59,414 nucleotides of DNA, from IMG/VR virus record IMGVR_UViG_3300029923_000020, positions 1 to 59,414 of that record. The stretch is one strand, 5' to 3'. Under the pieces are notes generated by a model, which was not told where the DNA came from, searched no databases, and worked only from the letters and a program-made list of their open reading frames with translations. Positions within the stretch are counted from its first letter, which is position 1. Each line of letters opens with the position of its first letter. Position numbers and translations under genes: made by a program. The DNA is from a virus. Below, piece by piece: positions 45,071 through 52,822 of the stretch.

Positions 45071-45116
45071 GAATTATCAACCACCCACCTTGGACTAAAC
45101 AGTGCTTTTCTTGGCC
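45071..45116 (-). promoter_or_regulatory. Small-gene promoter P6
   Basis: On the minus strand GGCCAAGAAAAG is followed by CTGTTTAGTCCAAG and, after 10 bases, GATAAT. It matches P5 closely and lies 33 bases before the chosen ATG. Confidence 0.65.
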
Positions 45117-48017: not shown

Positions 48018-48201
48018 CAGATGGTCTCCATTCGTTTTCGATATAGCGCCCGTGGACTTCACCGACGCAGAAAGCCAGCGTCTTGCCATCGGACGTGTGA
48101 ACTTTTATGACACGCCCGGCGAACGGCCCGCCGCTCAAGCATGCAAACCCAGGCTTGCCCCTGTTGACCTTTGGTCGGCCCGGCCGGACCCAGCGACTCA
48201 C
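48010..48201 (-). CDS. Small beta-barrel-like protein
   Basis: A 63-residue protein starting at GTG in a GTGA overlap. ACLSGGPFAGRVIKVHTSDG, followed by a strand and GRYIE, resembles small SH3-like phage proteins. Function unknown. Confidence 0.55.
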   Translation of the reverse strand: MSRWVRPGRPKVNRGKPGFACLSGGPFAGRVIKVHTSDGKTLAFCVGEVHGRYIENEWRPSDV

Positions 48202-48839
48202 GCGGCCTGCTCACGGTCGCGCAGTCGGGTGGTGGCTTCGTTCCAAATACGCATGTCGACGAAAGGGTCATTGATGATCAGGGAGCCATCGGCAGGTCGG
48301 ACCATGAAGTTCGCCGCGTGCATGTCCAGCAGGGCGTTCTCATAGTTCGGAGCGAAGCCTTCGAGGATGCTGAAGGCTTCACGCAGGGATTCAATGTGCG
48401 CCGGGTTGTTGGCGAGCTGACGCATTACAGATGCAGGATTGAACAGACCGGCGCGCAGGTCGGCCATTCTCATCCCGTCGTAGATATCGCTGACCTGCGT
48501 CATGACCTGCTTAGCCTGGCGACGAGCCTGAATGTTGCCTCGCAGCTTGACCAGCTTTTCGGTCTCGTAGAGGTAAAGATTCAGGTCGCCATAAGCCTGA
48601 TCGCCAATCTGGCCGTAATCGTTGGTTACCTGGGAAAAGTGCTTGCTTTGGTCTGCGATAGCCATCACGCCGTCACAGTGCATCGCGTAGCCGACCGGGT
48701 CGCAAGTGAGGTGCAACACCGTGTCACCGTTGTCGTATACAGCAGAGAATTTGCCGCGCCCTATCATGGGCAAACCTTTCAACTCAGGGTGACGGCGTGC
48801 CTGTTTGGTGCCGAAGTCGCTAAGTAGTAGAACATTCAT
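48198..48839 (-). CDS. Protein kinase-like protein
   Basis: A 213-residue protein with traces of a kinase fold. IGRGKFSAVYDNGD (27-40) resembles a glycine-rich loop, LLDMHAANFMVR the catalytic loop (H..N in place of HRD..N), and LIINDPFVD the metal-binding D-P-F (DFG equivalent). The N-lobe lysine is not clear. It is compact, like phage Ser/Thr kinases or aminoglycoside-type kinases. A host-takeover phosphorylation role is inferred. It is the first gene after promoter P8; ATG 48848 is an alternative start. Confidence 0.55.
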   Translation of the reverse strand: MNVLLLSDFGTKQARRHPELKGLPMIGRGKFSAVYDNGDTVLHLTCDPVGYAMHCDGVMAIADQSKHFSQVTNDYGQIGDQAYGDLNLYLYETEKLVKLRGNIQARRQAKQVMTQVSDIYDGMRMADLRAGLFNPASVMRQLANNPAHIESLREAFSILEGFAPNYENALLDMHAANFMVRPADGSLIINDPFVDMRIWNEATTRLRDREQAA

Positions 48840-48899: not shown

Positions 48900-48948
48900 A
48901 GCTATTGGCAGGGCAACTTGGAACAAACGCTTACTTTGCGATTGCCAG
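48900..48948 (-). promoter_or_regulatory. Small-gene promoter P8
   Basis: On the minus strand CTGGCAATCGCAAAG is followed by GTTTGTTCCAAG and, after nine bases, CAATAGCT. The -10 octamer is identical to that of P2 and P3. Confidence 0.65.
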
Positions 48949-48949
48949 G

Positions 48950-49120
48950 TTACTGGGGAACTACCTTGCTTTTAGAAGTGTCGTGAAATTCGATCACCGG
49001 CTTATTGCCGCTATATACGAACTTCTCTTTATAGACTTCGAAACCGCTGGACGCGGCGTTGAATACAATACCGGCGATTGCGACAATGAGCATCAGCTCG
49101 ATAAGTGTGAGGTTTTTCAT
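48950..49120 (-). CDS. Type IV pilin-like small membrane protein
   Basis: A 56-residue protein whose start, MKNLTLIELMLIVAIAGIVF, is nearly the N-terminal helix of type IV pilins (F-T-L-I-E-L-M-I-V-V-A-I-I-G-I-L), including the conserved Glu at position 5 of the motif. The Gly that prepilin peptidase needs before the cleavage site is Asn here, so it may stay unprocessed. No globular pilin domain follows, only a 36-residue soluble tail. It could sit in the membrane and disturb pilus assembly, which would block superinfection by pilus-dependent phages (inference). It stands alone under promoter P9. Confidence 0.65.
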   Translation of the reverse strand: MKNLTLIELMLIVAIAGIVFNAASSGFEVYKEKFVYSGNKPVIEFHDTSKSKVVPQ

Positions 49121-49159: not shown

Positions 49160-49208
49160 ATTTTATGGGGTTGAGCGTGGACTAAACAGTAGATTTGACA
49201 CTTGCCAG
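49160..49208 (-). promoter_or_regulatory. Small-gene promoter P9
   Basis: On the minus strand CTGGCAAGTGTCAAATC is followed by CTGTTTAGTCCACG and, after ten bases, TAAAAT. It drives the pilin-like gene with a leader of about 35 bases. Confidence 0.65.
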
Positions 49209-49251
49209 AGAAGGTCCATGTCCTTGGCAGGCAAGTGTCAGCGCCTTGGCT

Positions 49252-52021: not shown

Positions 52022-52822
52022 TTACTGGCCTTTGCCCAGATTCAGGGTTTTGCCGCTGGCAGAGCCGTCGACAATCAGGGTGCAGTTTTTGCTTTCAGCG
52101 CAGGCTTTCAGGGCTTCGTTGTATTCGTGCTGCAAGAACGCCGGGGTAAACGACTGACCCAACTTCTCGTTCGCCAACGATTCCTGCTCTTTGACCTGCA
52201 CCAGTTTCGTGGCGGTTGCCAGGCGGTTCGACGCGGTCACGTTGTCGCGGATGGACTGCTGCACGCTCTGGTCGTTGGTGATGGTGCGAATCACAATGCC
52301 GGTGACGGTGAAGGTTCCCGCTGCTTTCGCGTCGATCTTCGCCTGGAGGTCGGCCTTGATGCCCTGTTCCAGCTCGGTTCGCTTCGTGTTGAGCGTGTCG
52401 GCGGGATACTTGGCGACCTCGCCCATGATCGCAGAACGGGCCATGCCGTTGATCATGACGTAACCGGGGCGCACAAAGTCGTCACCGCCGACTTTCGCCG
52501 ACTGACCAGCAAAGCGACCCTGGAACGCCGGGAGTGCTGCCGTGTTGGCTTGGTAGAACACCGTCGCTTCGAAGTCCTGCACGGTCATCTTGTCAGACGC
52601 TTGCGGTTGCAGGGCCGTCAGCTCAATGGTCGTTTCCTTGCCGGTGTAGGTGGTCACATCGGAAAGGATGCTGGTGTAGAAGCCTGGCGTGACCAACTGC
52701 TGGTCGATCTTGCCGAACTGGGTGCGAACACCGACCTCGCCTTGGTCCATCATGCCACAGCCGGTGAGGGCGAGAGCCATCAGGAACATCGGGACGGCCA
52801 TAAAAAAGCGCTTCATATTCAT
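52022..52822 (-). CDS. SPFH/Band 7-domain lipoprotein
   Basis: A 266-residue membrane-anchored protein. The first 22 residues are a lipoprotein signal ending in L-T-G-C. GEVGVRTQFGKIDQQLVTPG is the opening of an SPFH (stomatin/prohibitin) domain, and the following ~170 residues keep the helical continuation (TELEQGIKADLQAKIDA). SPFH proteins form rings on membranes and control proteases such as FtsH; host HflKC regulates lambda lysis-lysogeny that way. A phage copy may shield phage proteins or remodel the membrane (inference). AAAGGA precedes the ATG. Confidence 0.78.
   Translation of the reverse strand: MNMKRFFMAVPMFLMALALTGCGMMDQGEVGVRTQFGKIDQQLVTPGFYTSILSDVTTYTGKETTIELTALQPQASDKMTVQDFEATVFYQANTAALPAFQGRFAGQSAKVGGDDFVRPGYVMINGMARSAIMGEVAKYPADTLNTKRTELEQGIKADLQAKIDAKAAGTFTVTGIVIRTITNDQSVQQSIRDNVTASNRLATATKLVQVKEQESLANEKLGQSFTPAFLQHEYNEALKACAESKNCTLIVDGSASGKTLNLGKGQ

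Follow-up and report, generated by a model that had tools for sequence, protein, structure and literature searches.

A putative phage micro-pilin with asparagine at the prepilin cleavage position

A 56-aa headless pilin-like protein, P0001, is encoded on the minus strand at 48950..49120 of the window, i.e. the whole 59,414-base stretch of DNA analysed here (virus record IMGVR_UViG_3300029923_000020, positions 1-59,414), as indicated by profile comparison, PDB alignment and an AlphaFold2 model. Judged from its sequence, P0001 is a phage micro-pilin, that is, a predicted single-pass inner-membrane protein made of a conserved pilin assembly helix and a short tail, and it appears as a new variant, with Asn at position -1, of a little-noticed phage family. 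Many such micro-pilins occur in phages whose hosts bear pili. It seems to keep what meets other pilin helices and to lose what permits cutting. The original prediction, which had seen in this gene a phage micro-protein imitating the N-terminus of a type IV pilin, is right and understated as regards the observation, and its pilus interpretation appears plausible from our analysis. Among the explanations weighed below, an uncleavable inner-membrane pilin decoy engaging the type IV pilus or type II secretion machinery is the best, if still tentative, one.

Sequence, predicted structure and pilin likeness

The frame of P0001 starts at an ATG, and no ATG, GTG or TTG is present in frame between it and the upstream in-frame stop. 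This frame is intact and has a positive coding score, together with a short ribosome-site match. The translation, MKN followed by LTLIELMLIVAIAGIV, contains TLIEL and can be divided into the leader MKN, the pilin-type helix LTLIELMLIVAIAGIVFNAASSGFEVYKEK and then FVYSGNKPVIEFHDTSKSKVVPQ. The conserved positions of pilins are Thr/Ser at 2, Glu5, Gly14 and Pro22, as described in the available text of PMC5059446. Numbered as a mature pilin, P0001 presents T+2 (T5), E+5 (E8), G+14, F+24 and Y+27 in register, along with a hydrophobic tract of about 21 residues, and has no Pro+22. Aromatic residues at 24 and 27 are pilin positions as well, in agreement with the geopilin alignment.

A pilin assembly helix including TLIEL with its Glu had been proposed over the first 20 residues; the Glu does lie at +5 and the likeness extends past these residues (G+14, F+24 and Y+27). 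Also borne out are the replacement of the processing Gly by Asn, residue -1 being Asn3 and not the cleavage-site Gly, and the absence of a pilin head, for which 56 aa leave no room. The AlphaFold2 model consists of one helix only (residues 6-34; mean pLDDT 67.8 for the model and 92 for residues 11-20), and the 22 residues beyond it form neither helix nor strand, so that no globular head is seen. As for the tail (23 aa, residues 34-56, including GNKPVIEFHD), it is modelled with low confidence.

The matches of P0001 in general libraries are weak. The best PDB sequence match is the Geobacter geopilin (residues 2-38, E 0.0037). At the Pfam level, N_methyl (PF07963) gives 10.7 bits (E 0.44), under its cut-off of 21.2, and is outranked by a chance-like Beta-APP match (E 0.035); the GspH and PilA models match with E 0.005-0.009, far under their cut-offs, and the best PHROG profiles (phrog_11263 and phrog_13280) reach E 0.0057 and 0.006. 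An HMM of 55 pilin-like N-termini, from which P0001 and its homologue L024 were excluded, gave P0001 a score of 23.4 bits, reached by none of 100,000 shuffles of residues 4-33 (maximum 18.1; 94,069 of the shuffles returned a score). With the same approach, all 1336 frames from stop to stop in the window were ranked, and that of P0001 came first (E 3.7e-6, vs 2.0 for the second-best frame). The generic hydrophobic helix, named at the outset as one part of what would overturn the prediction, failed in this profile comparison, the HMM and the shuffle controls favouring pilin likeness. The proposed mimicry is supported, more precisely as membership of a scattered set of phage proteins that start like a pilin, and not as a one-off. 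P0001 is no pilin by definition, being without Gly-1, without a head and under the Pfam cut-off; it is best described as a divergent form, uncleavable by its look, within a class of short pilin-like proteins scattered among phages, and is probably descended from a pilin or a pseudopilin.

Genomic setting and promoter-like element

The window is probably part of the genome of an SSU5/Nickievirus-like phage, as its terminase shares ~60-64% identity with the terminases of phages of 103-117 kb that infect Rhizobium, Pseudomonas syringae and Salmonella. Relatives of the terminase and of neighbour genes infect P. syringae, Rhizobium and others, and point to the host only indirectly.

P0001 stands isolated, with 131 nt to the upstream gene and 110 nt to the downstream one (gene calls of this study), as against a median intergenic gap of 1 nt in its strand block, and its GC content is 45% vs 56% for the block. 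The next gene, at 48198..48839 on the minus strand, is kinase-like (phrog_3809 and phrog_15752 matches), phrog_15752 being annotated as protein kinase and inhibitor of host transcription, and this neighbour suggests a host-takeover neighbourhood. A gene for an SPFH/Band_7 protein (52022..52822, minus strand; phrog_200 'lipoprotein'; Pfam Band_7 match) is located on the same strand as P0001, 2.9 kb and seven genes away. The gap before P0001 contains an inverted repeat at 49196..49240 (no strand assigned), with 19-nt arms that are 84% complementary, 7 nt between them and no T tract; a terminator, an operator and an RNA structure are the candidates for it.

P0001 had also been credited with its own promoter. 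A sigma-70 scan found no promoter upstream of the gene on its strand, whereas a phage-type promoter-like element was recovered by a de novo motif search, and the claim thus holds in altered form, as a promoter-like element only. This element, TACTGTTTAGTCCACGCTCA, lies at 49172..49191 on the minus strand and also precedes other minus-strand genes. It was found by comparing upstream regions (a shared 13-mer, then by eye) as a recurring sequence close to GTTTwGTCCAAG, and seven minus-strand 20-nt sites were recorded, at 45085, 41372, 57198, 39197, 48913, 58824 and 49172, the copy of the kinase-like gene occupying 48913-48932 on the minus strand in the matrix scan. With 3 mismatches allowed, the shared 13-mer shows no enrichment across the window (11 copies vs 9.5 expected). 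With a matrix of six hand-picked sites, P0001's copy ranks 7 of 118,790 positions, directly after the six themselves and with a lead of 4.3 bits over the following position, a rank that is not independent because the sites were partly picked for their likeness to P0001's.

A de novo motif from 32 other upstream regions, P0001's being excluded, corresponds to the same element (CTTTTTTCTCCAAG), with a log-likelihood of 70.7 (best of 150 starts) vs 40.7-48.9 in 12 shuffled sets (best of 60 starts each, i.e. fewer than 150). P0001's copy, CTGTTTAGTCCACG, scores 14.3 bits with the de novo matrix, a value reached by 3 of 5000 upstream-region shuffles. Likely copies of the element are added by this motif before 39789, 38397, 40337 and others. 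Concerning the spacing, a -10-like hexamer tends to lie at a fixed distance after the element; for P0001, the spacing test placed TAAAAT (49160..49165, minus strand) 12 nt after the GTTTAGTCCA core. The summed TATAAT match over the seven sites was reached by none of 3000 random window sets, and by 3 of 5000 when the sets were taken from the upstream gaps; for the six sites without P0001, it was reached by 29 of 5000 upstream-gap sets. Single matches to TATAAT near the -10 offset amount to merely 3-5 of the 6 positions.

Related ORFs in phages and their SPFH/Band_7 neighbours

A full-length relative of P0001, of 60 aa and with the same layout, was found at L024:2989-3168 (IMGVR_UViG_3300009506_000002, a 142 kb IMG/VR contig). 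The pairwise E value is 1e-13 (a single comparison), and for the tail beyond +30 the alignment score was reached by 2 of 20,000 shuffles; the two tails, GKVPGIEYHD in L024 and GNKPVIEFHD in P0001, have the motif GxxPxIE[FY]HD in common. The L024 ORF resembles P0001 in its length, tail motif, Tyr at +24/+27 and lack of Pro22, but differs by Gly-1 and Phe+1. It follows a clamp-loader-like gene (named from sequence), and its record gave no SPFH hit.

No confirmed close orthologue came out of the viral-contig search for P0001-related loci, and no related locus out of the viral-contig searches with the kinase-like and the DnaQ-like neighbours; the pattern MKN[LF]T[LF]IE[LF] matched 0 viral contigs. 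The L024 protein had no match in the phage collection, and L011's record gave no match. Nickievirus gave none either (PF07963 in four records; tblastn with P0001), a soft absence because PF07963 is weak on P0001 itself. Among plasmids, the first 30 residues of P0001 had one weak match, annotated as a pilin. No orthologue of P0001 was close enough for a selection test. A MAG protein (L022:3734-4813), encoded after a 648-aa ORF, apparently opens with MKNLTLIEITLLIV, i.e. an Asn-1 start followed by a long body, and may be another Asn-1 pilin-type anchor. This long protein and L023, an ordinary pseudopilin-like one, were set aside, their phage origin being unsupported.

The search with P0001 led to a 28-aa ORF of Aeromonas phages, annotated in Aeh1 as similar to a pilin N-terminal sequence. 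By tblastn (E up to 10), this 28-aa micro-pilin matched 168 phage records (170 with the Aeh1 copy), whose hosts, by record name, were Synechococcus (49), Pseudomonas (44), Vibrio (32), Aeromonas (25), Acinetobacter (6 or 8), 'Bacteriophage sp.' (8), Delftia (2), Microcystis (1) and, in one case, Salmonella; not all of these hits are micro-pilins, the cyanophage ORF having 127 aa and that of F10 210 aa. The Salmonella record looks like a bacterial contig from its name and annotation, as do some of the Acinetobacter records, and pilin counts are inflated because of such phage-filed records. AFYI01000001.1 and the CAKLQF/CAKLQH records are bacterial-looking records of this kind (annotated PilW, xcpT, pulG, prepilin-type protein).

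The NrdB protein of Aeh1 matches 803 Escherichia, 473 Salmonella, 409 Klebsiella, 91 Shigella and 64 Enterobacter records; for these five enterobacterial genera, there are 1840 NrdB records vs 1 for the micro-pilin, the bacterial-looking one. For Vibrio, Synechococcus, Aeromonas and Acinetobacter taken together, the figures are 1079 vs 112, the Synechococcus ORF being the longer 'pilin'. Fisher's test on the host counts gives 6e-49, to be read as a direction and not as a probability, because related records are counted repeatedly and NrdB and pilin records may differ.

The ORFs have 28 aa in Aeh1, 31 in PX29, 37 in AhP_Mru1, 44 in PhiW-14, 59 in Nankokuvirus G1 of P. aeruginosa (its micro-pilin occurring in 39 Pseudomonas records), 66 in KVP40, 67 in ValKK3, 72 in 44RR2.8t and 82 in Vibrio 1.081.O, with longer ones in Acibel004 (107 aa), ACG-2014f (127 aa) and F10 (210 aa). 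Gly-1 is present in 12 of 12 named-phage ORFs and in 80 of 80 IMG/VR loci, the latter being the best 80 of 196 from a scan in which one of the two patterns admitted only Gly or Asn at -1. Twenty of these 80 have an ORF of 107 aa or shorter, two of them cut by the contig end. Genes for nucleotide metabolism or replication accompany several micro-pilins (td in KVP40; nrdB and nrdD in Aeh1), and gp139 of PAK_P3 shares its minus-strand block with genes for a ligase, a helicase and a dCMP deaminase. According to a transcriptome paper (PMC4933390), middle transcription centres on two regions that carry genes of nucleic-acid metabolism; we infer middle expression for gp139. As for phage F10, gp11 (L026:8679-9311) is a 210-aa pilin-like protein, the gene of which is flanked by those of the major tail protein and the tape measure, and LESphi3 and PAN70 gave tblastn hits similar to it.

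An SPFH/Band_7 gene is found close to many of these ORFs, and Pfam recognised Band_7 in seven proteins, including that of the window at 52022-52822. Whole records with a short pilin-like ORF contain Band_7 in 20 of 27 cases, L024's record being one of the seven without a hit. Of the 16 lineages having both, 8 have the SPFH and the short pilin-like gene on the same strand, their midpoints no more than 1.1 kb apart, vs 0.4 expected under a null of uniform placement and random strand that ignores the clustering of gene types; none of 200,000 null sets reached 8. One record per lineage was used (G006, G017, W10 and W09 being merged into others). Records without Band_7 fall outside the test and would add six lineages, giving 8 of 22, although in two of these six (G020 and G021) the ORF is truncated at a contig end and might in full encode a longer pilin. 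In 6 of the 8 paired lineages, no ORF of 80 aa or more lies in between, some pairs overlapping or being within 10 nt of each other; small genes intervene in L082 (one) and in AhP_Mru1 (two). With longer pilin-like ORFs, Band_7 was found in 3 of 31 records (31 of 60 loci tried), 2 of them over the cut-off, and in these two the ORFs (165 and 122 aa) directly adjoin the Band_7 gene.

A further SPFH-micro-pilin pair, found later and outside the pair test, is that of Aeromonas phage 44RR2.8t, 53 nt apart and located between tk and rI. A table published in 2006 lists 44RR ORF097c (N-terminal methylation motif) and then ORF098c (SPFH), and the available text of that paper makes no comment on the pair (PMC1524935); no account of SPFH-pilin pairing was found in the literature searched. 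The window itself is without such a pair, defined as lying within about 1 kb on the same strand, since its SPFH gene is 2.9 kb away. Individual loci in which an SPFH/Band_7 gene adjoins a pilin-like gene are L029, L060, L071, L087, L089, L092, L041, L070 and L110, and one or two genes separate the two in L082 and L018.

Possible roles of P0001 and known systems

According to the available text of a review (PMC4471445), the last leader residue, Gly, is absolutely critical for processing and Glu5 is dispensable for it; Glu5 mutants form no filaments alone, yet enter filaments with wild-type pilin, so that E5 alone is no proof of use in assembly. The decoy idea fits Asn-1 because Gly-1 is absolutely critical: with Asn at -1, the host prepilin peptidase should not cut P0001. 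Unprocessed pilins are reported, in the available text of PMC13170266, to remain unassembled, to accumulate in the inner membrane and to lower pilA expression via PilS, which leads to resistance to pilus-specific phage. P0001 would insert N-in, as a prepilin does, and, being uncut, could persist in the membrane as a permanent 'prepilin' barred from filaments. There it might occupy the surfaces contacting pilin helices on the platform protein (PilC/GspF) and the peptidase PilD and, in Pseudomonas, also engage the sensor kinase PilS, the behaviour of which is published for host pilins; alternatively, PilC could be blocked by a phage prepilin that escapes cutting, in the manner of PfsE. Infected cells would then carry fewer pili and perhaps show reduced type II secretion, by which pilus-dependent rivals might be kept out or pilus signalling quieted. 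The specific version in which the phage of the window dropped the cleavage Gly, so that an uncuttable decoy mimics a prepilin backlog and switches pili off, is unlikely in our estimate.

The decoy reading is indirectly favoured by the recurrence of short pilin-like ORFs in unrelated phages, by the isolated position of P0001, which has a promoter-like element to itself and a kinase-like gene next to it, by the host bias of micro-pilins away from enterobacterial phages (records that are not phylogenetically independent), and by the precedent of PfsE. The logic of an uncleavable decoy applies to P0001 only, because all the other phage ORFs read have Gly-1, and Asn-1 could equally mark decay. Against a decoy, the gene linked to micro-pilins in other phages is an SPFH and no pilus gene, and the literature searched contained no paper on micro-pilin function and described none for any phage micro-pilin.

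The main rival reading, possible although on the whole doubtful, is that the pilin-type helix is a mere membrane anchor and packing surface and that the phage SPFH/Band_7 protein is its working partner, pili being left untouched; the pair might then organise or protect a patch of the membrane, with lysis timing, envelope stress, proteolysis or superinfection sensing as candidate roles. Proximity on one strand in half of the 16 lineages, the close pair of 44RR2.8t and the SPFH gene of the window, at 2.9 kb, point in this direction. However, the two genes are not near each other in the window, in KVP40-, Aeh1- and G1-type phages or in the L025 jumbo phage, Band_7 gave no hit in 7 of the 27 short-ORF records, among them that of the closest homologue, L024, and the pair null ignores gene-type clustering. 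Moreover, a mere anchor need neither keep E5, G14, F24 and Y27 nor be absent from enterobacterial phages.

We consider it unlikely that P0001 is, or was, a headless subunit cut by PilD and weakening or capping a pilus or pseudopilus, with Asn-1 being tolerated or slowing the cutting. Such a subunit would agree with Gly-1 and Glu being kept in every other pilin-like phage ORF read, and with the solved structures of short Geobacter pilins, but Gly-1, absolutely critical for processing in the available text of PMC4471445, is missing from P0001. Decaying cargo, i.e. a micro-pilin acquired as a lone cassette, deprived of its processing site and now idle, is quite improbable: the occurrence of Asn-1 nowhere else among the phage ORFs read, the weak Pfam score, the short ribosome-site match, the GC content of 45% vs 56% for the block and the lack of a match in relatives are consistent with it, but the frame is intact with a positive coding score, the helix positions are kept, L024 and P0001 have a tail motif in common, and the phage promoter-like element in front of the gene is a good copy. 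Finally, a chance hydrophobic ORF happening to read TLIEL is hardly credible: the 8-mer MKNLTLIE can occur outside phages, as the MAG protein L022 also opens with it and a hydrophobic stretch, but none of the 100,000 composition-preserving shuffles matched P0001, and the frame control, the L024 homologue with its matching tail and the promoter-like element are against it as well.

Should type IV pili or type II secretion prove to be disabled by micro-pilins, these would form an overlooked phage anti-pilus class acting by molecular mimicry, as opposed to binding of the PilB motor. Their presence in complete annotated phage genomes (KVP40, PAK_P3, Aeh1 and 44RR2.8t) makes the question directly testable, and the Asn-1 of P0001 offers a natural, apparently uncleavable form to contrast with its Gly-1 relatives. 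The SPFH pairing, for its part, provides a candidate partner and a hint at the role of phage-encoded SPFH proteins.

Small phage blockers of type IV pili, which the original prediction had brought up for Pseudomonas, do exist at a size similar to that of P0001, namely PfsE, Tip and Aqs1. PfsE of Pf4 is, like P0001, a tiny phage inner-membrane protein, and blocks type IV pili by binding PilC; in the available text of PMC8764522 it has a conserved YAWGW aromatic motif and is not described as pilin-like, whereas P0001 has no Trp and hence lacks this motif. Tip of D3112 and Aqs1 of DMS3, small phage proteins switching off type IV pili, bind the ATPase PilB in the accounts available, Aqs1 being a helix-turn-helix dimer. 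Domain 1 (PilA-N) of the Geobacter geopilin is the best PDB match to P0001, but is bacterial and has Gly-1. This geopilin is a short natural pilin without a head, which is processed and assembled. The cyanophage pilin (phrog_3433) and F10 gp11 are, like P0001, phage genes with a pilin N-terminus, but have longer bodies (127 and 210 aa, respectively) and Gly-1. PHROG 13280, 10597 and 11263, marked as of unknown function, have in common with P0001 a pilin N-terminus in a phage protein too short for a full head, and KVP40.0030, PAK_P3 gp139, Aeh1p044, PX29 gp038 and 44RR ORF097c are the named short ORFs. The short phage pilin-like ORFs that were read (that of PAK_P3 not being among them) have Gly-1, whereas P0001 has Asn-1 and a different tail.
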